Shown here: one piece after another, positions 1,390 through 26,310 of the stretch
Layout of the letters: every line of letters starts with the position of its first letter
How positions within the stretch are numbered: position 1 is the first letter of the stretch
Origin: Agrobacterium vitis
Lineage (GTDB): Bacteria > Pseudomonadota > Alphaproteobacteria > Rhizobiales > Rhizobiaceae
Reading direction: 5' to 3'
Assembly: GCF_037039395.1 (NCBI RefSeq)
Contig: NZ_CP146244.1
Location: forward strand, 1-64,000
DNA length: 64,000 nt
Position numbers and translations under genes: made by a program
The notes under the pieces: model-generated
Told to the model about the DNA's origin: nothing
Databases searched by the model: none
The model's input: only the letters and a program-made list of their open reading frames with translations

Positions 1390-3549
1390 ATGGCTACTGC
1401 CACTCAAAAAATCACCCTGTCGTCCTCGCGCGACATCCCCTTCAACAAGCTCATTTTGAGCCAATCGAACGTCCGCCGCATAAAGGCCGGAGTCTCGATC
1501 GAAGACCTTGCGGTGTCGATCGCGCGTCGCGGCCTGATCCAGAGCCTTCACGTCCGGCCAGTCCTCGACGCCGACGGACAGGAAACCGGGATGTTCGAGG
1601 TTCCCGCTGGCGGCCGCCGCTATCAGGCTCTCGCGATCCTGGTGAAGCAAAAGCGCCTCGCCAAGACCGCGCCAGTTCCCTGCGTCGTCGGCGACGCTGC
1701 CAGCGGCATCCTCATGGAGGAAATCTCGTTCGCTGAGAACGACGAGCGTGTTCCGCCACATCCGCTCGACCAATACCGTGCCTTCCAGACCATGCGCGAC
1801 AAGGGCATGACCGAGGAAGACATCGCCGCCGCCTTCCTCATCGACGTCAATGTCGTCAAGCAGCGTCTGCGCCTGGCCTCCATCTCGCCGGTGCTGCTTG
1901 ACATCTATGCCGAAGACGGCATCGAACTGAAGCAGCTTATGGCCTTCACCGTCTCGCAGGATCATGCGCGCCAGGAGCAGGTCTGGGCAGCGATCAAGGA
2001 CGGCTGGCAGAAGGAGCCGTGGCAAATCCGCCGCATGCTCACCGAGACTGCGGTACGCGCATCTGACAAGCGCGCCGCGTTCGTCGGCATCGACGCCTAC
2101 GAGGCGGCGGGCGGCTACCTCCTGCGCGATCTGTTTGAGGACGACCATGGCGGCTGGCTGCAGGACCCGGTCCTGCTCGATCGGCTGGTTGGCGAAAAGC
2201 TGAAAACCATCGCCGAGGAAATTGCCGGCGAAGGCTGGAAATGGGTCGAGATCGCCGTCAACTTTCCCTATGGCCATGACGAGGGTCTGCGCGAGCTTGT
2301 CGGCACGACAGCCAATCTGACGGACGAAGAGCGTGCTGCCCGCGAGGCGCTTCGTGACGAACATGATCGTCTGGAAGCCGAATATGCCGAGGCCGACGAT
2401 CTGCCTGACGAGATCGATCATCGCCTTGGAGAGATCGAGCAGTCGCTTGACGCTTTCGAGCAGCGCCCGATGATCTACGATCCGGCTGAGATCGCCCGCG
2501 CCGGCGTTTTCGTCAGCATCGATCGTGATGGCGATCTGGTCGTCGATCGCGGCTATGTCCGCCCCGAGGATGAAGCTCCGCTCGCTATCGATGGCGAAGC
2601 GAGCAATGATGATCCCGATGTCGTTGCTTCAGAAGTCGGCGCCAACGCCACCATCCAGCGGGCCGTCACCACCATCGGCGGTCAACCGGTCGCGCCGGAA
2701 GAGGATGACGAGGAGGATGTCATCAAGCCGCTGCCGGAACGGCTCGTAATCGAGCTGACCGCACATCGGTCGCTGGCGCTTCGCGACGCGGTCGGCGCCA
2801 ATCCTCATGTGGCGCTCACGGCCCTTTTGCATAAGTTGGTTCGCGACACCTTCCAGCGCATCAGTACGTCGGGTGCAAGCCTGCAAGCTTCGGTCAATCA
2901 GGTCTCCTTCCGTGAGCAGGACAAGGATCTCGCCGAGGCACCCTATGCGAAATCCGCTACGCAACGGCATGAGGAGTGGAAGACGGATATTCCGGCCGAC
3001 GATGACGCGCTCTGGGACTGGCTTGCCGTGCTAGACGAGACCAGCCGCCTGGCGCTGCTCGCCCATTGCGTCGCCTACGGGGTCAACGCCCTATACGAGC
3101 GTCCGAATCCCCACAGCGCCACCGGGATATCGCAGGCAGCCCTTGATCGCCGTATGGCCGAGGCTGATCGGCTGGCGCGCTCCACCGGCCTCGACATGGT
3201 GGACGCGGGCTTCCGGCCCACGGTTGAGAACTATCTCGGCCGGGTGACTAAGCCGCGCATCCTCGCCGCCGTCCGTGAAGGCGCTGGCGAGCGTGCGGCC
3301 CAGCTCATCGTCCATCTGAAAAAAGGCGACATGGCGGTGGAGGCCGAGCGCCTTCTGGCGGATACCGGCTGGCTGCCTGAACCGCTGCGCCTTGCCGATC
3401 TCGATGGCGAGGCTGCCGCAGAGGTCACGGCGGCCGAAGCGGATGGCGCGGGGGAGGCGCTGCCCGATTTTCTCGCCGGTGACGACGAGGACGATATGGA
3501 CGATGCCGACAACGACGACGATCATGGTGCGACGATCGCGGCCGCATAG
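1390..3549 (+). CDS. ParB/RepB/Spo0J-family partition-like protein
   Basis: A 719-aa protein whose N-terminal ~120 residues form the ParB nuclease-like fold: the GGRRYQAL box is near residues 74-81 and ENDERVPPHPLDQ near 116-128, followed by a helix-turn-helix region (to ~190). It is over twice the length of a chromosomal ParB. The long C-terminal part is of unknown function, is rich in acidic residues, and ends in an Asp-rich tail (near 695-712). Large ParB-like proteins of this kind are standard in rhizobial conjugative elements. Whether it partitions DNA or only binds it is not shown. A strong terminator follows it, so it is not co-transcribed with the island behind it. Confidence 0.88.
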   Translation: MATATQKITLSSSRDIPFNKLILSQSNVRRIKAGVSIEDLAVSIARRGLIQSLHVRPVLDADGQETGMFEVPAGGRRYQALAILVKQKRLAKTAPVPCVVGDAASGILMEEISFAENDERVPPHPLDQYRAFQTMRDKGMTEEDIAAAFLIDVNVVKQRLRLASISPVLLDIYAEDGIELKQLMAFTVSQDHARQEQVWAAIKDGWQKEPWQIRRMLTETAVRASDKRAAFVGIDAYEAAGGYLLRDLFEDDHGGWLQDPVLLDRLVGEKLKTIAEEIAGEGWKWVEIAVNFPYGHDEGLRELVGTTANLTDEERAAREALRDEHDRLEAEYAEADDLPDEIDHRLGEIEQSLDAFEQRPMIYDPAEIARAGVFVSIDRDGDLVVDRGYVRPEDEAPLAIDGEASNDDPDVVASEVGANATIQRAVTTIGGQPVAPEEDDEEDVIKPLPERLVIELTAHRSLALRDAVGANPHVALTALLHKLVRDTFQRISTSGASLQASVNQVSFREQDKDLAEAPYAKSATQRHEEWKTDIPADDDALWDWLAVLDETSRLALLAHCVAYGVNALYERPNPHSATGISQAALDRRMAEADRLARSTGLDMVDAGFRPTVENYLGRVTKPRILAAVREGAGERAAQLIVHLKKGDMAVEAERLLADTGWLPEPLRLADLDGEAAAEVTAAEADGAGEALPDFLAGDDEDDMDDADNDDDHGATIAAA

Positions 3550-3666: not shown

Positions 3667-4323
3667 TCAGGGATGGAGCTGTATCAGTGGTGAGCAGCAC
3701 TTCTTGAATTTCTTGCCGCTCCGGCAAAAGCATCGATCATTCGGTCCGGTATGGCGACCGAGGTCGACGAAGACGGCACCAAGCCTTTGCTGGACGTCTC
3801 GTCCGAGTGCTGCGAGATGGTTACGGTCCATCGTGAACTGGTTTCCCACGGAATGCCGCTCGATCGTTCGCTGTAATGTGTCGGCAGCCCGTATCCAGTC
3901 CGAAACGCTCGCAAACCGACCGAGGCTCTTCTTGATATTGATCAGCCGCTTTTGTCCCACGAAATCGTATGTGCGGACAGGGTCCGGGAGAAACAGGATT
4001 CTCGTCTCACCGTTTATCGGCGGGGTGATATCGATCAATACCCCGTCCTTCTCCCACACTGCATGATGTTCCGCCTCGATGAACACGCGCGGCCATTCCC
4101 AGATCAGCCAGCCATAGACGAACGATCCGCCGTCACGGTCCACCTTGGCCGAGACATTGTTGAAGCATTCTGATGGTTGCGCATCGCCATCGGGCCGGAC
4201 TGCAACATAGGACGGCCTGGCGTCGGCATTAATGCCGGCGCAGAACTCCACCACGGCGGGGCTGATCTCATTCGGCGACGTCGTATAGCTCTTCTTGAAC
4301 AGGTCGGTGCTGATTGCGGGCAC
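3667..4323 (-). CDS. SEC-C motif protein of unknown function
   Basis: A 218-aa protein ending in a SEC-C zinc-binding motif: GPNDRCFCRSGKKFKKCCS near residues 190-208, with the expected C-x-C and CC pairs. SEC-C motifs occur at the end of SecA and on many proteins of defence or housekeeping function. The N-terminal ~185 residues match nothing I recognise; they are Trp-rich around residues 70-90 and have no transmembrane segment. The gene lies 30 nt downstream of the 78-aa gene on the same strand, so the two are likely co-transcribed. Both sit in the accessory island between the ParB-like gene and the methyltransferase, genes often adjacent in related elements. Confidence 0.75.
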   Translation of the reverse strand: MPAISTDLFKKSYTTSPNEISPAVVEFCAGINADARPSYVAVRPDGDAQPSECFNNVSAKVDRDGGSFVYGWLIWEWPRVFIEAEHHAVWEKDGVLIDITPPINGETRILFLPDPVRTYDFVGQKRLINIKKSLGRFASVSDWIRAADTLQRTIERHSVGNQFTMDRNHLAALGRDVQQRLGAVFVDLGRHTGPNDRCFCRSGKKFKKCCSPLIQLHP

Positions 4324-4590: not shown

Positions 4591-4799
4591 TTTTCGGCCT
4601 CCATAACCCATGCACTTGCCGTCACCATAGCGTCATCGACAAGACGGGCCATGTCCGCACCAGGAATCATCCTGTGTAGCGAGAATATCTCAACTCATGG
4701 TGGACGGTTCCGATTTATGATCTTCTCCTGCTTATTTCCTTCTGGACAATAGTTTGAATATCCGACGAAACAATATCGCCGCTACATTTGGGGGATCGC

Positions 4800-5951
4800 A
4801 TGGAAGTCGAAGGACAAACGATCCGGGCGATATGGGATGCGTTGCAAAGACCGGAGCCGTCCGATCGCCCTGTCCCGGTTTCGTTGGCCACAAGGATCGC
4901 GGAAACCGGATGGGCATTGACGGCTGATATCGAAGATTTGCTGCTGATGCTCGACCGCAGATCGGACCCGCCTGCGGTCATCGATATCGAAAAGTTCACC
5001 GCCGCGCTCAACCTGCCGTTTCGCGCTGTGTTCTCGCGCCCGAAACATCGGCTCGATGACGGTTTCGGTCATTCCATGCTTTCCGCGATCGATGCCGCCG
5101 CCTTTTGCATCTTCATCGAACGGCTGGGCTTCCGGATCGATCTGACGACCTTGTGCGCTCGGCTCAAGGGGGCAATTCCGCCGGTTTCCCATCTGAGCGA
5201 GGACGAGATCTCGGTTCTCTTCTATGATCAGAACCGTCATCGCATGCCGCCTGTGACCCTCTCGGCGCCTCATCGGCCATGGCGGGGAATGCGCACGATG
5301 CGACACAAGACGGGATCGGGCTACCGACTGGAATATGTGATTGATGACAATGGCGAGCCCTTGTGGCTGAAGATCGTCGCTCCGAAATATCGCAAGCGCC
5401 CAGAGACGCAATCCGTGACCTGCCCCGATTGCGGAATGCTCTACGTCAAGGGCCTGCGGACCGACGAACAGGTGCACCGGTCGTTCCACCGCAAGCGTTT
5501 TGCCATCATCGACCCGAAGCCGAACCGGCAATTCGCAGATGCATTGTCCCGCGATCTCGACGCTCCCTGGGTGGATGCGTCGTCACCGAAATGGAAACGC
5601 AAGGCGGTTTATGATCGGGCGCTCGAGTTGAAGCGCGAGCTGAGCTACGATTTCGTGCAATGGCAGACCGACCCCGATCACGACAGTGAAGCGGTCGGGT
5701 TTCTGTTTTCCGATGACGAGGACCGGATCGTCGGTGCCTGTGCGTTTCGCCCCCAGCCGGCTGGACGCGGTGACAACCCTTGGCGGCTCGACTGGATATG
5801 GATGTGCCCCGATGCGCGGCGCCGGGGTCTGTTGGGGCGCCAGTGGGATCGCTTTCGTCGGCGGTTCGGTGTCTTCGACATCGAGCCGCCGATCTCGGAA
5901 GCGATGCAGGCGTTTTTACGCAAGCGAGGATGCGCCGGCCTGATCAGGTGA
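4800..5951 (+). CDS. ESCO/Eco1-like zinc finger plus acetyltransferase protein
   Basis: A 383-aa protein starting at the ATG behind GGGGGA; a TTG at 4788 is an unlikely alternative. Residues ~206-233 form a C2H2 finger with C208, C211, H226 and H230 and the spacing and flanks (CPDCGMLY...VHRSFH) typical of the finger that precedes the acetyltransferase domain of eukaryotic cohesin acetyltransferases Eco1/ESCO. The last ~95 residues look like the matching GNAT domain: a strand ending WIWM, then an acetyl-CoA loop-like RRRGLLGRQW, then a final helix. The N-terminal ~200 residues are unrecognised. Family knowledge: Eco1/ESCO acetylate SMC3. What a bacterial homologue would modify is unknown. The 3' end overlaps the convergent hydrolase gene by 8 nt. 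Confidence 0.65.
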   Translation: MEVEGQTIRAIWDALQRPEPSDRPVPVSLATRIAETGWALTADIEDLLLMLDRRSDPPAVIDIEKFTAALNLPFRAVFSRPKHRLDDGFGHSMLSAIDAAAFCIFIERLGFRIDLTTLCARLKGAIPPVSHLSEDEISVLFYDQNRHRMPPVTLSAPHRPWRGMRTMRHKTGSGYRLEYVIDDNGEPLWLKIVAPKYRKRPETQSVTCPDCGMLYVKGLRTDEQVHRSFHRKRFAIIDPKPNRQFADALSRDLDAPWVDASSPKWKRKAVYDRALELKRELSYDFVQWQTDPDHDSEAVGFLFSDDEDRIVGACAFRPQPAGRGDNPWRLDWIWMCPDARRRGLLGRQWDRFRRRFGVFDIEPPISEAMQAFLRKRGCAGLIR

Positions 5952-6904: not shown

Positions 6905-6936
6905 GACGGGTTTGAGCCCGGGCGGTCGAGAGAGAG
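6905..6936 (+). promoter_or_regulatory. Leader element shared with the ParB-like gene (copy 2)
   Basis: GACGGGTT at 6905-6912 and GGTCGAGAGAGAG at 6924-6936, 45 nt before the methyltransferase start. Same two blocks as at 1334-1357, with 8 nt more between them. Confidence 0.4.
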
Positions 6937-6980
6937 CGCTGCGCGGGCTTCCCGTTCCCGCTCTCCTGAGGCTTCCTCTC

Positions 6981-8150
6981 ATGAACATCGCCTTGCCCGT
7001 GGCCGCTCCGGTCGCCCCTGTTGCCCATGCGCCCGCCATTCTCGCGGCCGCTAATCATCTTCTCGACTATCTCGAACGCGGTGAGCGCGTCGACACGACT
7101 GTCCTGCGCTCGGCCATGGAAACCGCCTTCGGTGTGTCCGATTCCAGCGGAGTCTGGAATTGGAAAGCGGCCTACGACGCTTGCGAAGTCGCCACGGTCC
7201 TGTTTCTGCGCAAATACGGACGTGCGCTTTTCCGTAAAGCCGTCTCTCCGGTTTCGCGGCTTTCCGCCCTGTCGAAAATCGCCGGCCTCCTACCGACCCA
7301 AACCCGCCGCTCGGAAGAGAGCCAGGCATTCCAGCAGTTCTCGACGCCGGTTCCGTTGGCCTTGGCGGCGGTGACGGCGGCGGCCGTCACTGCGAACGAC
7401 ATCGTGCTCGAACCTTCCGCGGGGACCGGACTTCTCGCCATCCTGGCCGAGATCAGCGGCGGCACGCTCGTCCTGAACGAGTTGGCTGAGGTCCGCGCCG
7501 ATCTGCTCGCCTCTCTCTTTCCGGCCATCGCCGTCACCCGCGTCGACGCCGCGCAAATCGACGATCATCTTGCACCAGGCGCGGTGCCATCCGTCGTACT
7601 GATGAACCCACCGTTCTCCGCCCTGGCGAACGTCTCCGGCCGCGTGGCCGATGCCGGCTTCCGCCATATCGCCTCGGCGTTGAACCGCCTCGCGCCCGGC
7701 GGACGGCTGGTGGCGATCACCGGCGCCAATGTTGGCCCGGATATTCCCGACTGGCGCGACGCCTTCGTCCGCTTGCAGGACCGGAGCACGATCGTCTTTT
7801 CCGCCGGTATCGCCGGCTCGGTCTATGCCAAGCACGGCACGACCTTCCCGACAAGGCTCACGGTCATCGACAAGGTGCCTGCCGAGGATCCCGCCATCGT
7901 CCCGGCCTCGCCGGGCGTGGCGCCGGACGTCACCACGCTGCTCGGCTGGATCGAGGCTCAGGTTCCGCCACGTCGGCCTGTCGCGTTGCCGGAAATCCCG
8001 GCGCAGCGCCCGGCCACGGCGCCCCGCAGCGAGCGCGGCTATCTCGCCCGCTCGGCCGTTTCGCGTCCGGCTGCGTCCGTCGCCGATCCCGAAGGCGTGG
8101 AACTGGCTTATGAGAGGGTGGATTGGACGCCGCCTGAGGCGCGCATCTAA
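6981..8150 (+). CDS. DNA methyltransferase-like N-terminal part of a strawberry-notch protein
   Basis: A 389-aa protein with a Rossmann methyltransferase signature: EPSAGTGLLA near residues 144-153 (SAM-binding motif I) and NPPF near 209-212 (adenine-type motif IV). The start at 6981 has TGAGG upstream; an in-frame start at 6912 is longer but has no site. In related elements, as I know the family, this domain is fused to the strawberry-notch helicase that follows here. In this copy the reading frame hits TAA at 8148-8150 and coding continues in another frame from 8150 (TDAIYEEYGLQS), consistent with a 2-bp insertion (or 1-bp loss). It may still work as a separate polypeptide. Confidence 0.8.
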   Translation: MNIALPVAAPVAPVAHAPAILAAANHLLDYLERGERVDTTVLRSAMETAFGVSDSSGVWNWKAAYDACEVATVLFLRKYGRALFRKAVSPVSRLSALSKIAGLLPTQTRRSEESQAFQQFSTPVPLALAAVTAAAVTANDIVLEPSAGTGLLAILAEISGGTLVLNELAEVRADLLASLFPAIAVTRVDAAQIDDHLAPGAVPSVVLMNPPFSALANVSGRVADAGFRHIASALNRLAPGGRLVAITGANVGPDIPDWRDAFVRLQDRSTIVFSAGIAGSVYAKHGTTFPTRLTVIDKVPAEDPAIVPASPGVAPDVTTLLGWIEAQVPPRRPVALPEIPAQRPATAPRSERGYLARSAVSRPAASVADPEGVELAYERVDWTPPEARI

Positions 8151-11100
8151 CCGACGCCATCTATGAAGAATACGGATTGCAGTCGATCCGCATTCCCGGC
8201 TCTCAGGCCCATCCGACCAAGCTGGTCCTGTCCGCCGCGATGGCGAGCGTCGCGCCGCCGAAGCCGAGCTATCGGCCGATGCTGCCAGCCAACATCCTCG
8301 GCCTCCTGTCCGACGCCCAGTTGGAAACCGTGGTCTATGCCGGTGAGGCCCACTCCGACTATCTCGCCGGATCGTGGACGGTCGATGACACCTTCGACGT
8401 CATTCAGGCCGCACCGGCCGACGCCGCGAAGGCGGTGCGTTTTCGCCGCGGCTTCATGCTCGGCGATGGGACCGGCGCGGGCAAGGGACGCCAGTCGGCC
8501 GGCATTATTCTGGACAATTGGTTGCGCGGTCGCCGCAAGGCCGTCTGGGTCTCGAAATCCGACAAGCTGATCGAGGACGCGCAACGTGACTGGTCGGCGC
8601 TCGGCATGGAGCGCCTTTTGGTTACGCCGCTCTCGCGCTTTCCTCAAGGCGCAAGGATCACCCTGTCGGAAGGCATCCTATTTACAACCTATGCTACGCT
8701 ACGCTCCGACGACCGTGGAGAGAGGGTTTCCAGGGTCAGGCAGATCGTCGAATGGTTGGGCTCCGACTTCGATGGAGTGATCATTTTCGACGAGAGCCAC
8801 GCAATGCAGAACGCCGGCGGAGGCAAGGGAGAACGCGGCGATGTCGCCGCCTCACAGCAAGGACGCGCAGGGCTGCGGCTGCAGCACGCGCTTCCCGACG
8901 CGCGTGTCGTCTATGTCTCCGCCACCGGCGCCACCACCGTCCGCAATCTCGCCTATGCGCAACGGCTTGGCCTCTGGGGGGCTGAGGATTTCCCCTTCGC
9001 CACGCGCGCCGAGTTCGTGGAGGCGATCGAGGACGGCGGCGTCGCGGCCATGGAGGTGCTGGCCCGCGATCTGCGGTCGCTGGGTCTCTATACCGCCCGC
9101 TCGCTCTCCTATGATGGGGTCGAATACGAGCTGGTCGAGCACAAGCTGACGGACGAGCAGCGCCGCATCTACGATGCCTACGCCGGCGCGTTCGCGATCA
9201 TCCATAACCATCTCGATGCGGCGATGGAGGCGGCCAACATCACCGGCAGCGACGGCACGCTGAACAGGCAGGCTAAGTCAGCCGCCCGCAGCGCCTTCGA
9301 ATCGGCCAAGCAGCGGTTCTTCGGGCACCTCTTGACCAGCATGAAAACCCCGACATTGCTCCGCTCGATCGAGCGCGATCTCGCGGCGGGCCACGCTGCC
9401 GTCATCCAGATCGTCTCGACTGGCGAATCGCTGATGGAGCGCCGGCTGGCCGAGATCCCGACCGAGGAATGGAATGACGTCCGCGTGGACATCACGCCGA
9501 GGGAATATGTTCTCGACTACCTTTCTCATTCCTTCCCGGTCCAGCTCTACGAGCCGTTCAGCGACGCGGAGGGCAACCTGTCGTCGCGGCCGGTCTTCCG
9601 TGACGGTCAGCCCGTCGAAAGCCGCGAAGCCGTCGCCCGGCGCGACGAGCTGATCGAGCGGCTCGCCAGTCTGCCGCCAGTTCCCGGTGCGCTCGACCAG
9701 ATCGTCCAGAGATTCGGCACGGACACGGTGGCGGAGGTGACGGGCCGTTCCCGGCGCATCGTCCGCAAGGTGGACGCCACTATGTCGGGCGCCGAATCTC
9801 TGGGCGATCGCCTCGTCGTCGAGAACCGCGCACCATCCGCCAATCTGGCGGAGACGGCCGCCTTCATGGACGACCTGAAGCGCGTGCTGGTCTTCTCGGA
9901 CGCGGGCGGGACGGGGCGTAGTTACCATGCCGAACTGTCGGCCCGGAATCTCCGCCTGCGCGTCCATTATCTGCTGGAGCCCGGCTGGAAAGCCGACGCG
10001 GCCATTCAAGGCCTTGGCCGGACCAACCGGACGAACCAGGCGCAGCCGCCCTTGTTCCGTCCGATCGCGACCGACGTGAAGGCGGAGAAGCGCTTCCTCA
10101 GTACCATCGCCCGGCGTCTCGACACGCTCGGCGCGATCACGCGGGGTCAGCGTCAGACCGGCGGCCAGGGCCTGTTCAGGGCCGAAGACAATCTGGAATC
10201 GCCATACGCGCGCGCTGCGCTGCGCCAGCTTTATCTCCTGCTCGTGCGGGGCAAGATCGAGGGATGCTCGCTTGATCGTTTCGAGGCGGCCACCGGCCTG
10301 AAGCTGATGGACAGTAACGGCATCAAGGATGAGTTGCCGGGTATCACGACCTTCCTGAACCGGCTTCTGGCGCTCACCATCGAGCTTCAGGGAATCCTGT
10401 TCACCGCCTTCGAGCAATTGCTCGACGCCAAGGTGCAGGGAGCCATCGCCAGCGATGTCTACGACATCGGATTGGAGACGCTGACGGCCGAGAGCTTCGT
10501 CGTCACCGACCGCAAGACGATCTACACCCATCCGGCCACCGGAGCCGAAACGCGGCTGCTCACCATCACCGAGCGGCGGCGCAACCGGCCAATGACGCTC
10601 GACGATGCCTTCGGCTGGATCGCCGACGGCAACGGCAAGCTGCTGGCCAATGCCAAGTCAAGTCGTGCCGCCGTGCAGGTTCCGGCGCCTTCGCTGATGC
10701 TGGACGATGGCGAGATCGAGCGGCGGGTGCGGTTGATCCGGCCGATGGAGCACCACCATGCTTCGCTGAAGATGATGGCGGAAAGTCATTGGGAGGAAAT
10801 CGACCGCGAGACGTTCGCCGCCATCTGGAGCCGCGAAGCCTCGGAAGTGCCGGCCTTCTCGGACAGCACCATCCATGTGGTCGCCGGGCTTCTGCTGCCG
10901 GTGTGGAAACGCCTGCCGAATGAATCGACGCGTGTCTATCGGCTACAGACCGATGACGGCGAGCGAATCATCGGTCGCCGCGTCTCTCCGGCCTGGGCCG
11001 CCAATGCGACTGCGCCCGGCAGGACCGTGCTTGCAGGTGATGATGCCTTCGCCGCGCTGATGGACGGCCGCACGATCCTCGATCTTGCCGAGGGCCTGCA

Positions 11101-11317
11101 GCTTCGCCGCGTCCGCGTCATGGGCGCGAACCGCATCGAGCTTTCCGGCTTCAGCGAGGCCATGCGCGAGCGGCTGCGCGCGTATGGCCTCTTCACCGAG
11201 ATCATCTCGTGGAAGCTCCGCTTCTTTGTTCCAACTGATGCCACGGGCGTCACGGCGCTCGGCAAGCTGCTCGAAACCTATCCGGTCGAACGCGTCGCCG
11301 AACGGGAGGTAGCGTGA
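8150..11317 (+). CDS. Strawberry-notch-like helicase/ATPase (split from its N-terminal partner)
   Basis: A superfamily 2 helicase-like protein, 1046 aa if read from the TTG at 8177. The coding frame is open from 8150, directly at the stop of the preceding gene, and no ATG exists there. Visible motifs (counted from 8177): GDGTGAGKGRQ near 96-106 (Walker A), DESH near 205-208 (Walker B), VSATGATT (motif III), then VFSDAGGTGRS near 572 and GLGRTNRTNQ near 612 (second RecA domain with arginine finger). Family knowledge: plasmid proteins of this type carry a methyltransferase domain in front and may handle modified or single-stranded DNA in the recipient. Translation would need reinitiation or frameshifting. 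Confidence 0.8.
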   Translation, partial: TDAIYEEYGLQSIRIPGSQAHPTKLVLSAAMASVAPPKPSYRPMLPANILGLLSDAQLETVVYAGEAHSDYLAGSWTVDDTFDVIQAAPADAAKAVRFRRGFMLGDGTGAGKGRQSAGIILDNWLRGRRKAVWVSKSDKLIEDAQRDWSALGMERLLVTPLSRFPQGARITLSEGILFTTYATLRSDDRGERVSRVRQIVEWLGSDFDGVIIFDESHAMQNAGGGKGERGDVAASQQGRAGLRLQHALPDARVVYVSATGATTVRNLAYAQRLGLWGAEDFPFATRAEFVEAIEDGGVAAMEVLARDLRSLGLYTARSLSYDGVEYELVEHKLTDEQRRIYDAYAGAFAIIHNHLDAAMEAANITGSDGTLNRQAKSAARSAFESAKQRFFGHLLTSMKTPTLLRSIERDLAAGHAAVIQIVSTGESLMERRLAEIPTEEWNDVRVDITPREYVLDYLSHSFPVQLYEPFSDAEGNLSSRPVFRDGQPVESREAVARRDELIERLASLPPVPGALDQIVQRFGTDTVAEVTGRSRRIVRKVDATMSGAESLGDRLVVENRAPSANLAETAAFMDDLKRVLVFSDAGGTGRSYHAELSARNLRLRVHYLLEPGWKADAAIQGLGRTNRTNQAQPPLFRPIATDVKAEKRFLSTIARRLDTLGAITRGQRQTGGQGLFRAEDNLESPYARAALRQLYLLLVRGKIEGCSLDRFEAATGLKLMDSNGIKDELPGITTFLNRLLALTIELQGILFTAFEQLLDAKVQGAIASDVYDIGLETLTAESFVVTDRKTIYTHPATGAETRLLTITERRRNRPMTLDDAFGWIADGNGKLLANAKSSRAAVQVPAPSLMLDDGEIERRVRLIRPMEHHHASLKMMAESHWEEIDRETFAAIWSREASEVPAFSDSTIHVVAGLLLPVWKRLPNESTRVYRLQTDDGERIIGRRVSPAWAANATAPGRTVLAGDDAFAALMDGRTILDLAEGLQLRRVRVMGANRIELSGFSEAMRERLRAYGLFTEIISWKLRFFVPTDATGVTALGKLLETYPVERVAEREVA

Positions 11318-22506: not shown

Positions 22507-22557
22507 GACCCAACACCCTGTCTCTACGAGATTTTCTGAACATTGCAGGGCTACGCC

Positions 22558-24297
22558 ATGGCCGATGAGCGCGAGTTCCGCGTCCGTCCGGGGCGCATCC
22601 GGTCCAGCCGGGGGCAATCGGCGCGGCCCTTTATCGCACAGGCGCTCGCCGCGGCGAAGAGGGCCGGCGGCGGCGTATCGCGCTCCGGCCGCGTTGTTCC
22701 CGGTAATCGCTCACGTTTCGGACATGGTCAGCGCGCCAGCATCCAGGCCAATCGCCTGATCTCGTCGCGCTCGCGCGGCGCTGTCGTCAAGGCGCGCGTC
22801 GTGCGGCATTCGGGACGGACAGCGCCACTCGGCACCCACCTCAACTATCTGCGCCGCGAGGGCGTGACCCGTGACGGGGAAAAGGCCCGCCTGTTCGGGC
22901 CGGACACCGAGAATGCTGACGCCGGCGCCTTCGCCGAGCGGAGCCAGGATGACCGGCATCATTTCCGGTTCATCGTCTCGCCAGACGACGCGCTGGAAAT
23001 GTCCGATCTCAAGTCCTTCACCCGTGATCTCGTCGGACAGATGGAGAAGGACCTCGGCACCCGGCTCGACTGGGTGGCCGTCGATCACTGGAACACCGAG
23101 CATCCCCATGTCCATCTGATCGTGCGCGGCGTCCGTGACGACGGCCAGGATCTCGTCATCTCGCGCGACTACATCAAGGAGGGGATGCGTGACCGGGCGC
23201 GCGATCTCATCACCCAGGAGCTGGGGCCGCGCACCGACCTCGACATCCGCCGCACGCTGGAGCGCCAGATTGAATCGGAACGATGGACCCAGCTCGACCG
23301 TCAGCTTGTCCGGGATGCACGAGAAACCGGTATCATCGATCTTGCGCCGCAATCGGATCGCGAGCCAGACGAGTTTCATGCCCTGAAGGTCGGACGCCTG
23401 CGCAAGCTGGAAGTCCTTGGCCTGGCCGGACAGGTCGGCCACTCGCAATGGTTCGTCAAGCCGGAAGCCGAGGCGGTACTGCGCGAACTCGGCGAGCGTG
23501 GCGACATCATCAAACGCATGCACAAGGCGCTGACGGACCGTGGCATCGAACGCGGCTCGGCCAACTATGTGCTCGCAGGTGAAAGCCTCGATGAGCCGAT
23601 CATCGGCCGCCTGGTCGATCGCGGTCTCGACGACGAACTGAAGGGCTCGGCCTATGCCGTCGTCGATGGCGTCGATGGCCGTACCCATCACATCAAGCTG
23701 CCCGATCTCGATGCGGCCGGCGACAGCGCTCCCGGCTCGATTGTCGAGCTGCGCAAGTTCGATGACGCGCGTGGTGAGCGCCGTGTCGCGCTCGCCGTTC
23801 GCTCCGATCTCGACATCGAGCGACAGGTCACGGCATCGGGCGCGACTTGGCTCGACCGGCAGGCGGTGGCAAGAGAACCATTGTCGCTCTCCGATGGCGG
23901 CTTCGGCGCCGAGGTGCAGCAGGCTATGGACCGGCGCGCTGACCATCTGATCTCCGAAGGTCTTGCCGAGCGCCAGGGCCGCAGCGTGGTGTTCGCCCGC
24001 CGGCTGGTCGACACCTTGCGCCGCCGCGAACTCGATACGCTTGGCGAGAAACTCGCCACCGAGACGGGTCAGCCATTCAACGGGGCCGCAGGCGGCGAAC
24101 ATGTCGCCGGCACCTATCGGCAACGCTTCGCGCTCGCGTCGGGCCGCTACGCGATGATCGACGACGGTCTCGGCTTCCAGCTCGTACCGTGGTCGCCATC
24201 CCTGGAAAAACAGCTCGGTCGCCACGTCTCCGGCGTCGCCCGCAACGACGGCGGCATCGACTGGAGTTTTGGCCGCAAGCGGGGGCTCGGCCTTTAA
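22558..24297 (+). CDS. traI: Relaxase (MOBP/VirD2-like, DUF3363)
   Basis: A 579-aa protein that would nick oriT and pilot the strand into the recipient. The N-terminal relaxase domain shows GTHLNYLRREG with candidate nicking Tyr Y97 and the metal-binding HPHVHLIVRG (H182, H184, H186). The remaining ~370 residues are the DUF3363 region typical of rhizobial relaxases. The start is ATG 22558 (AGGG 7 nt upstream) rather than 22543. It is followed after 27 nt by traG. A 504-aa open frame on the opposite strand is a GC-driven shadow. Confidence 0.92.
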   Translation: MADEREFRVRPGRIRSSRGQSARPFIAQALAAAKRAGGGVSRSGRVVPGNRSRFGHGQRASIQANRLISSRSRGAVVKARVVRHSGRTAPLGTHLNYLRREGVTRDGEKARLFGPDTENADAGAFAERSQDDRHHFRFIVSPDDALEMSDLKSFTRDLVGQMEKDLGTRLDWVAVDHWNTEHPHVHLIVRGVRDDGQDLVISRDYIKEGMRDRARDLITQELGPRTDLDIRRTLERQIESERWTQLDRQLVRDARETGIIDLAPQSDREPDEFHALKVGRLRKLEVLGLAGQVGHSQWFVKPEAEAVLRELGERGDIIKRMHKALTDRGIERGSANYVLAGESLDEPIIGRLVDRGLDDELKGSAYAVVDGVDGRTHHIKLPDLDAAGDSAPGSIVELRKFDDARGERRVALAVRSDLDIERQVTASGATWLDRQAVAREPLSLSDGGFGAEVQQAMDRRADHLISEGLAERQGRSVVFARRLVDTLRRRELDTLGEKLATETGQPFNGAAGGEHVAGTYRQRFALASGRYAMIDDGLGFQLVPWSPSLEKQLGRHVSGVARNDGGIDWSFGRKRGLGL

Positions 24298-24324: not shown

Positions 24325-26310
24325 ATGTCCGCGACGAAAATTCTCTGGGGCCAGATCCTCACCGTCTTCCTGATCGTGCTGATGACGACCTGGGGAGCGA
24401 CACAGTGGACGGCCTGGCGCCTCGGCTTCCAGCCCCAGCTCGGCCAGCCCTGGTTCGAGCTGGCCGGCTGGCCGATCTATTATCCTCCGGCCTTCTTCTG
24501 GTGGTGGTATTTCTACGATGCCTATGCGCCACCGATCTTCGTCGAAGGCGGTATGATCGCGGCGTCTGGCGGTTTCATCGCCATCGCGGTTGCGATCGGC
24601 ATGTCGGTCTGGCGGGCGCGCGAGGCCAAGAATGTTGCGACCTACGGATCGGCGCGCTGGGCCGAGCCGGAGGAAGTGAAGGCTGCCGGTCTGCTCGACC
24701 AGGACGGTGTTGTTCTCGGCAGGCTTGATCGGGCCTATCTGCGGCATGATGGCCCGGAGCACGTCTTATGTTTTGCGCCCACGAGATCGGGCAAGGGCGT
24801 CGGCCTGGTCGTGCCCTCGCTGCTCACCTGGCCAGGTTCGGCCATCGTCCACGACATCAAGGGGGAGAACTGGACACTCACCGCCGGCTTCCGATCCCGG
24901 CACGGCCGCGTGCTGCTGTTTGACCCGACCAATGCACGATCGGCAGCCTACAATCCGCTACTCGAGGTGCGGCGGGGTGAATGGGAAGTCCGCGACGTCC
25001 AGAACATTGCCGACATCCTGGTCGATCCGGAAGGGTCGCTGGACAAAAGGAACCATTGGGAGAAGACCAGCCACGCGCTGCTGGTCGGAGCGATCCTGCA
25101 CGTCCTTTATGCCGAGAAGGACAAGACGCTGGCCGGCGTCGCGGCATTTCTGTCCGATCCGAAGCGGCCGATCGAATCGACGCTCGCTGCGATGATGAAG
25201 ACCGCGCATCTGGGTGACGCAGGCCCGCACCCGGTTATCGCGTCGGCCGCGCGTGAGCTGCTGAACAAATCCGACAACGAGCGATCGGGCGTGCTGTCGA
25301 CCGCCATGTCGTTTCTGGGCCTGTACCGCGATCCTGTCGTTGCCGAAGTGACGCGGCGCTGCGACTGGCGCATTACCGACATCGTTGGCAGCAAGCGCCC
25401 GACGACGCTTTACCTCGTCGTGCCGCCGTCCGACATCAATCGCACCAAGCCGCTCATTCGCCTCATCCTCAACCAGATTGGCCGCCGTTTGACCGAGGAT
25501 TTGCAGGCGAGGGGCGGGCGTCACCGGCTACTGCTGATGCTGGACGAGTTTCCGGCATTGGGCAGGCTGGATTTTTTCGAGAGCGCCTTGGCCTTCATGG
25601 CGGGCTATGGCCTCAAATCATTCCTGATCGCCCAGTCGCTGAACCAGATCGAGAAAGCCTATGGGCCGAACAACTCGATCCTCGACAACTGCCATGTGAG
25701 GGTGTCGTTCGCGACGAATGACGAAAGGACGGCGAAGAGGGTGAGCGACGCGCTTGGCACCGCCACCGAAATGAAGGCGATGAAGAACTATGCCGGGCAT
25801 CGGCTGTCGCCCTGGCTCGGGCATTTGATGGTCTCGCGCTCGGAAACCGCGCGACCGCTGCTCACCCCTGGCGAGATCATGCAGCTTCCCCCGGCTGACG
25901 AAATCGTCATGGTCGCAGGAACGCCGCCGATCCGGGCGAAGAAGGCGCGATACTTCGAGGACGCAAGGTTTCAGGAGCGGATACTGCCGCCGCCGAAGCT
26001 GGTCCGTACCGGCGAACCGCATCCGGACGACTGGAGCCGCCTGCCGATCCCGGCTCATCTCCCGTTCAACGAAGCTGTGGCGGGCACCGCCGAGGAGGAT
26101 GAGGATCCGACCGAATCCGAGCGCCGGCGTCAACCCGAACTGAGCCGCGTGAAACCTGTCGAGAAGAAGGAGCCCATCGAAAACGAATTCGAGATCGATC
26201 CTCCCGATGAGATGGAGGAGGAAGCCACCCGGAACCGCCGAATGGCCCGCCTCATGCAAGGTGTGGCGCGACAGGTCTCGCTTGATCCGAATGACGGGAT
26301 GGAGCTGTGA
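24325..26310 (+). CDS. traG: Type IV coupling protein TraG/VirD4
   Basis: A 661-aa inner-membrane ATPase linking the relaxase-DNA complex to the mating channel. Two N-terminal transmembrane segments (about residues 10-30 and 70-95) precede the ATPase domain with Walker A TRSGKGVG near 153-160 and Walker B LLMLDEFPALG near 403-413. The C-terminal ~70 residues are acidic and probably engage cargo. Full length for the family. The stop overlaps the start of the next gene. Confidence 0.95.
   Translation: MSATKILWGQILTVFLIVLMTTWGATQWTAWRLGFQPQLGQPWFELAGWPIYYPPAFFWWWYFYDAYAPPIFVEGGMIAASGGFIAIAVAIGMSVWRAREAKNVATYGSARWAEPEEVKAAGLLDQDGVVLGRLDRAYLRHDGPEHVLCFAPTRSGKGVGLVVPSLLTWPGSAIVHDIKGENWTLTAGFRSRHGRVLLFDPTNARSAAYNPLLEVRRGEWEVRDVQNIADILVDPEGSLDKRNHWEKTSHALLVGAILHVLYAEKDKTLAGVAAFLSDPKRPIESTLAAMMKTAHLGDAGPHPVIASAARELLNKSDNERSGVLSTAMSFLGLYRDPVVAEVTRRCDWRITDIVGSKRPTTLYLVVPPSDINRTKPLIRLILNQIGRRLTEDLQARGGRHRLLLMLDEFPALGRLDFFESALAFMAGYGLKSFLIAQSLNQIEKAYGPNNSILDNCHVRVSFATNDERTAKRVSDALGTATEMKAMKNYAGHRLSPWLGHLMVSRSETARPLLTPGEIMQLPPADEIVMVAGTPPIRAKKARYFEDARFQERILPPPKLVRTGEPHPDDWSRLPIPAHLPFNEAVAGTAEEDEDPTESERRRQPELSRVKPVEKKEPIENEFEIDPPDEMEEEATRNRRMARLMQGVARQVSLDPNDGMEL

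Follow-up and report, generated by a model that had tools for sequence, protein, structure and literature searches.

Does a conjugative element of Agrobacterium vitis encode a prokaryotic relative of the Eco1/ESCO acetyltransferases, which fasten cohesin rings around the chromosomes of eukaryotes and are central to sister-chromatid cohesion? The question is raised by a gene near the start of the window (the whole stretch of DNA analysed here, 64,000 nucleotides at one end of a 1.23-Mb contig; genome 6.04 Mb), for which a preliminary description had proposed such a relative with an SMC-like target. The reading that we favour, and hold with about even confidence, is that of a three-module mobile-element protein serving as an acetyl-CoA-dependent protein acetyltransferase in element–host conflict, with an ESCO-class finger presenting the target. 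The sequence itself shows which modules are present, how they are ordered and conserved, and that their context is mobile:

4800..5951, + strand: CDS of the ESCO-finger/GNAT protein (383 aa, ATG start, open frame)
4800..5396, + strand: N-terminal module, aa 1–199 (no Pfam match over cut-off)
5409..5495, + strand: ESCO-class zinc finger, aa 204–232 (C208, C211, H226, H230; PF13878, 36.2 bits)
5571..5948, + strand: GNAT-like module, aa 258–383 (PF00583 at 18.3 bits, below cut-off; phrog_36762; alignment A2)
5883..5885, + strand: codon of E362, candidate general base (E in 19/19; equivalence to ESCO2 D567 by eye)

The open frame is a real gene under purifying selection relative to its Brucella daejeonensis orthologue, with a dN/dS of about 0.14 (dN 0.038, dS 0.263); synonymous sites are saturated in more distant pairs. 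An alternative in-frame TTG at 4788 would add four residues. The protein matches no NCBIfam model and none of the PADLOC 2.0.0 families (E up to 1), and a single-sequence search of the PDB gave nothing sensible (best E 0.25). All the residues and motifs on which the preliminary description was built (C208, C211, H226, H230, CPDCGMLY, VHRSFH, WIWM at 332–335 and RRRGLLGRQW at 340–349) are present in the translation; the distance from finger to WIWM, put there at ~65 residues, is actually ~100 after H230, and a conserved YDFVQW block starts ~53 residues past that histidine.

An HMM search with PF13878, one of the checks proposed earlier, places the finger in the ESCO class at 36.2 bits against a cut-off of 27, with no other finger class close; the sole other finger-type model matching the protein was ZNF512_C2HC (E 0.22). 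All 15 aligned finger-bearing sequences, the window included, keep the four zinc ligands and the C-X2-C-X14-H-X3-H spacing, which is also that of the ESCO1 and ESCO2 chains. PF13878 is matched by seven of the eight members of family alignment A1 (E up to 10), and one relative (L013) stays under the cut-off at 20.7 bits. ESCO-class fingers are rare among the bacteria searched: the cut-off is passed in 1/385 class genomes and 2/299 phylum genomes (the window's own genome counted in each), and none of 14 control genomes gave a match. The second phylum genome to pass is G967, where the finger that clears the cut-off belongs to a 140-aa frame (L088:1462-1884) in which no GNAT can be seen.

The C-terminal module features the conserved blocks YDFVQW, GACAF, WIWM, RRxG and FDIEPPISEAM. 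The GNAT-like end that had been proposed scores 18.3 bits with PF00583 in the window protein itself, under the cut-off of 20.7; a finger-less relative from a viral-collection contig (L016) passes at 25.7 bits. R340, G343, E362, P364, S366 and M369 are invariant in all 19 aligned sequences (window included); a GNAT-only relative outside that alignment (L045) has Q at the place of E362, as judged by eye. The protein resembles two families of unknown function, phrog_36762 at E 1.8e-15 and, more faintly, phrog_16994 at E 4.7e-4, and the likeness is confined to the GNAT part; phrog_36762 comprises 165 positions and therefore should be a GNAT-only protein.

How far the likeness to Eco1/ESCO extends past the finger is where the main alternative has to be weighed, namely a chance pairing in which an ESCO-resembling bacterial finger was joined to an ordinary GNAT, without any closer kinship to Eco1/ESCO, giving a protein that would still be an acetyltransferase of any substrate; we consider this quite possible, if short of probable. 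When a profile of the eight family members was searched against all PDB sequences, ESCO2 came first (E 0.012, finger), followed jointly at E 0.051 by ESCO1 (finger) and a bacterial acetyltransferase (C-terminus), all of them weak E-values. Profile–profile alignment with ESCO, represented by a shallow set of four vertebrate chains, gave a probability of 94% and a score of 57.4 in local mode and 96% in global mode. This alignment is collinear from the finger to the GNAT motif (WIWM/RIWV), in the order of finger and then C-terminal GNAT that the preliminary description had taken from Eco1/ESCO. The linker between finger and GNAT core (V-x4-P-x-[WY]) can be aligned as well and, like the finger spacing identical in 15/15, speaks against a chance pairing. 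So do the shuffling controls: when ESCO was shuffled everywhere except in the finger, none of 200 sequences reached the observed score (mean 46.7, maximum 52.5), and therefore the region past the finger contributes signal; the GNAT half alone scores 22.5 against ESCO, a value reached by 0/200 shuffles of that half.

That value is nevertheless exceeded by ordinary GNATs of the same genome, three of 30 outscoring it against the family (33.1, 26.9 and 24.1) and three of 30 against ESCO (28.3, 25.1 and 23.3), where the 30 come from the genome's 48 GNAT matches and one is ended early by a stop. By itself, the GNAT half fits generic GNATs as well as it fits ESCO. Chance pairing is further favoured by the final 64 residues, which 6/100 shuffles match as well, and by the separate occurrence of the parts, as a finger with no visible GNAT in the 140-aa frame and as finger-less GNAT relatives. 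The model of the ESCO acetyltransferase itself, PF13880, points the same way: the HMM search suggested earlier gave no match, PF13880 being absent from the 10 families matched by any of the eight family members (E up to 10), and its matches in the window's own genome lie at four other places and not at this locus.

The catalytic positions given for mouse Esco2 are E491, S527 and S566, all three invariant, and D567, which is Q in yeast Eco1 (PMC7300003). E491, S527 and S566, three of the four, are not conserved in the bacterial family. E491 corresponds to R317 (relatives also have L, M, S or A) and S527 to D331 (also Q, S or A), and S566 corresponds by eye to I361 (also V, L or P). D567 is matched, again by eye, by E362, a position that is acidic in 19/19 and that lies at an end placed differently by hhalign in global mode. 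About 30 ESCO residues have no counterpart in the bacterial family, and the large alignment gap lies in an ESCO region including a loop between two strands that is described as unresolved in mouse Esco2 (PMC7300003). Because the evidence from PF13880, from the catalytic positions and from the GNAT half stands against it, we do not regard the protein as a member of the ESCO family; it is ESCO-like only in finger and order. The "bacterial relative" of the preliminary description thus survives for finger class and domain order, and fails for PF13880 and three of four catalytic positions. A literature search of limited depth for PF13878, PF13880 or bacterial Eco1 found no bacterial relative of the cohesin acetyltransferase.

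The N-terminal ~200 residues had been called an unknown domain, and Pfam indeed gives nothing over a cut-off there. A 219-aa protein on a small Methylobacterium plasmid (L096:5995-6654) resembles this module alone (24% identity, E 3e-10). The GNAT module likewise occurs alone (L015–L018 and L045) or behind another N-terminus, as in an Enterobacterales plasmid protein and in a relative from G1129 (L046:8726-9742), which has a different, unrecognised N-terminus of ~200 aa. The N-terminal module, the finger and the GNAT are each met separately, and the window protein is therefore best described as an assembly of three modules. Further afield, a two-gene unit (L051:6408-8387) pairs a HEPN-like gene (PF18870 below cut-off) with one for a 333-aa protein that ends in a distant GNAT relative; it is matched in 208/5,426 E. 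coli genomes, with 206/209 places chromosomal, and is possibly a conflict pair, with no PADLOC match.

The surroundings of the gene bear out the conjugative element of the preliminary description, with relaxase and T4SS genes downstream. This ICE also carries an RPA-type replication gene and ParA, and its relevant features are:

1390..3549, + strand: ParB-N-like gene of the ICE, upstream conserved flank (PF02195 below cut-off; synteny)
3667-4323, − strand: SEC-C motif protein, divergent from the ESCO-finger/GNAT gene (Pfam)
6912..8150, + strand: downstream conserved flank of the ICE, resembling a methyltransferase by eye (NPPF motif; Pfam gives nothing at E 0.001)
8177..11317, + strand: Strawberry-notch-type helicase of the ICE (PF13872, PF13871)
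22543..24297, + strand: relaxase of the ICE (DUF3363; PF11843, PF03432)
24325..26310, + strand: T4SS coupling protein of the ICE (PF02534)

The ESCO-finger/GNAT gene sits between the ParB-like and methyltransferase-like genes, and the same position is kept in ICEs of Agrobacterium vitis (L006), Brucella daejeonensis (L007) and Rhizobium subbaraonis (L008) and in L042, in which DNA identity is 76–80% for the ICE backbone and ~72% for the gene; a short contig (L041) keeps the gene and the downstream flank. The neighbouring hydrolase is absent from L007 and L042. Retention of the same place across related ICEs marks the gene as a resident component of the lineage. In L041, an ORF beside the gene is similar by eye to the SEC-C motif protein. 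The same genome holds a second copy of the ICE, 98.3% identical over one part and 99.9% over the next, in which the ESCO-finger/GNAT gene (L039, G000:C2:1386643-1387792) is frameshifted near residue 285.

Relatives (E up to 1e-5) were found in 137 of 72,556 plasmid records, 126 of the 137 being from Pseudomonas, and in one of 50,697 phage records; scans of viral contigs gave either no relatives or only contigs found before. A DNA search with the megaplasmid version returned 114 records, as did the TraM-recognition gene of the same plasmid, the two sets having equal tallies by organism and mobility (a comparison of tallies and not row by row). By this count the gene equals a transfer gene in frequency within one group of Pseudomonas megaplasmids. 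AR439, the strain of the query plasmid, is named among the pBT2436-like (IncP-2) megaplasmids, with a core genome of 261 groups (PMC7070040). Chromosomal presence is sporadic (6/394 family genomes and 3/60 relatives, the window's own genome in both), and the GNAT profile occurs in 4/398 phylum genomes, again including the window's own.

The survey of homologues on other mobile elements that had been proposed as a check revealed defence genes near the gene at some loci; in the window ICE, where 20 window proteins were compared with Pfam alone, none was recognised. In L009, an A. tumefaciens plasmid, a Gabija pair is one gene away and a CBASS-type effector ~9 kb away; on a Rhodovastum plasmid (L010) the gene is immediately upstream of MzaB and MzaC; and in G021 (L047) its neighbour on the opposite strand is Mokosh MkoA, an Abi-like gene following three genes later. 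In G596 (L043) and on pQ15_94_4 (L092, where the gene is broken and Gabija was assigned by annotation and similarity) it is followed on the same strand by gajA and gajB. Identities between these two loci of 83% (GajA), 76% (GajB) and 73–78% (pieces of the ESCO-finger/GNAT gene) indicate one inherited three-gene unit observed twice, whereas the Gabija genes of L009 are of a different lineage and on the opposite strand. Among the neighbours of L014, RmrA was the only PADLOC match, several genes distant; PADLOC recognised none for L044 (two proteins) or L011 (one protein), annotation names no defence gene in five Pseudomonas plasmid regions, and neither the window ICE nor any of the annotated Pseudomonas regions showed gajA/gajB beside the gene. 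These are raw observations, from neighbours submitted to PADLOC with annotation or ORF starts already in view. A genome-wide link to OLD-type TOPRIM genes was rejected (3/9 carriers versus 12/29 non-carriers).

For the SMC-like target once suggested, nothing in these data shows one. A link to SMC-based restriction was rejected, as the type I Wadjet gene JetA (PF11855) occurs in 0/9 carriers and 0/29 non-carriers (0/38 genomes), the carriers coming from six genera and the non-carriers all from the window's genus, and the set omitting the incomplete same-genus genomes G004, G016, G018 and G030, 24 other-family genomes and the GNAT-only carriers G1048 and G1129. The single SMC-like lead is the three-gene unit with gajA at the two related loci. 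L043 GajA matches PF02463 (RecF/RecN/SMC N-terminal) at 51.3 bits against a cut-off of 40, and its best Pfam match is AAA_15 at 75.4 bits. GajA, an ABC-type ATPase, is no more than a remote analogue of Smc3, and it is the one head-bearing candidate target found. We regard it as improbable that the finger–GNAT enzyme has as its target the ATPase head of an SMC/ABC-type protein (GajA or a host SMC), switching that protein on or off by acetylation, with the eukaryotic cohesin acetyltransferase derived from, or sharing a source with, this conflict cassette; we have lowered this reading because GajA-type ATPases are placed in the OLD family and their SMC assignment is called a misclassification (PMC12839542). 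If it were true, the mobile-element finger–GNAT protein would be a bacterial counterpart of Eco1.

In the mechanism that we propose for the conflict acetyltransferase, the GNAT module would bind acetyl-CoA through its R-x-x-G motif, E362 would act as general base, and a lysine (or the N-terminus) of a protein would be acetylated, the finger and the N-terminal module together recognising this substrate. Acetylation may then switch the activity of a defence or DNA-maintenance protein in a conflict between element and host or between two elements, which would protect either the element against its host or the host against a competitor. A conflict protein is the most likely substrate, given that conjugative elements retain the gene on its own and that at several other loci it lies near anti-phage systems; DNA, RNA or a small molecule could also serve.

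Those alternatives correspond in part to two further readings. A toxin-like GNAT or an effector of abortive infection, with tRNA or a translation factor as the molecule acetylated, would suit the defence-type neighbours at several loci and the pairing of the distant GNAT-module relative with a HEPN-like gene in those E. coli genomes (PF18870 below cut-off), yet no partner gene shared by the loci was seen, and the backbones of ICEs and megaplasmids retain the gene amid differing surroundings; we judge this reading unlikely. A DNA-modifying GNAT like phage Mu Mom, whose finger would bind DNA and whose modification of bases would protect the entering element from restriction, fits a solo gene on entering elements, a relative (L019) with phage-like neighbours by eye and the discussion of GNATs as DNA modifiers in defence loci (PMC12839542), but is improbable, and no profile similarity to Mu Mom was found (hhalign score 6.9, P 0.98).

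The family is of interest on two counts. A bacterial family with the ESCO finger class, order and alignable linker is either a prokaryotic relative that can be put to the test or a plain instance of convergence, and an uncharacterised gene at transfer-gene frequency in more than 100 Pseudomonas megaplasmid records makes a role in plasmid spread or defence directly testable.

Three known systems invite comparison, the first two as precedents for the proposed mechanism. We know of no zinc finger in AcrVA5. It is a GNAT acetyltransferase of mobile elements, as is proposed for the window protein, a likeness of description and not of sequence, and it differs in inhibiting Cas12a, which it acetylates and so disarms as a defence protein (PMC9114340). 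GNATs of polyvalent proteins, likewise compared by description and not by sequence, belong to T4SS-bearing conjugative elements and are predicted to be protein modifiers; they are described as RimI-like, and the term "zinc finger" has no occurrence in the available text of that source (PMC5512222). From Eco1/ESCO the protein differs in lacking a PF13880 match, in the positions of E491, S527 and S566 and in its N-terminus. It shares with Eco1, ESCO1 and ESCO2 the class and spacing of the finger, the placement of that finger before a C-terminal GNAT and a collinear profile alignment; its CGMLY block is identical to that of ESCO1 and, by eye, it has an acidic residue (E362) where Esco2 has D567.
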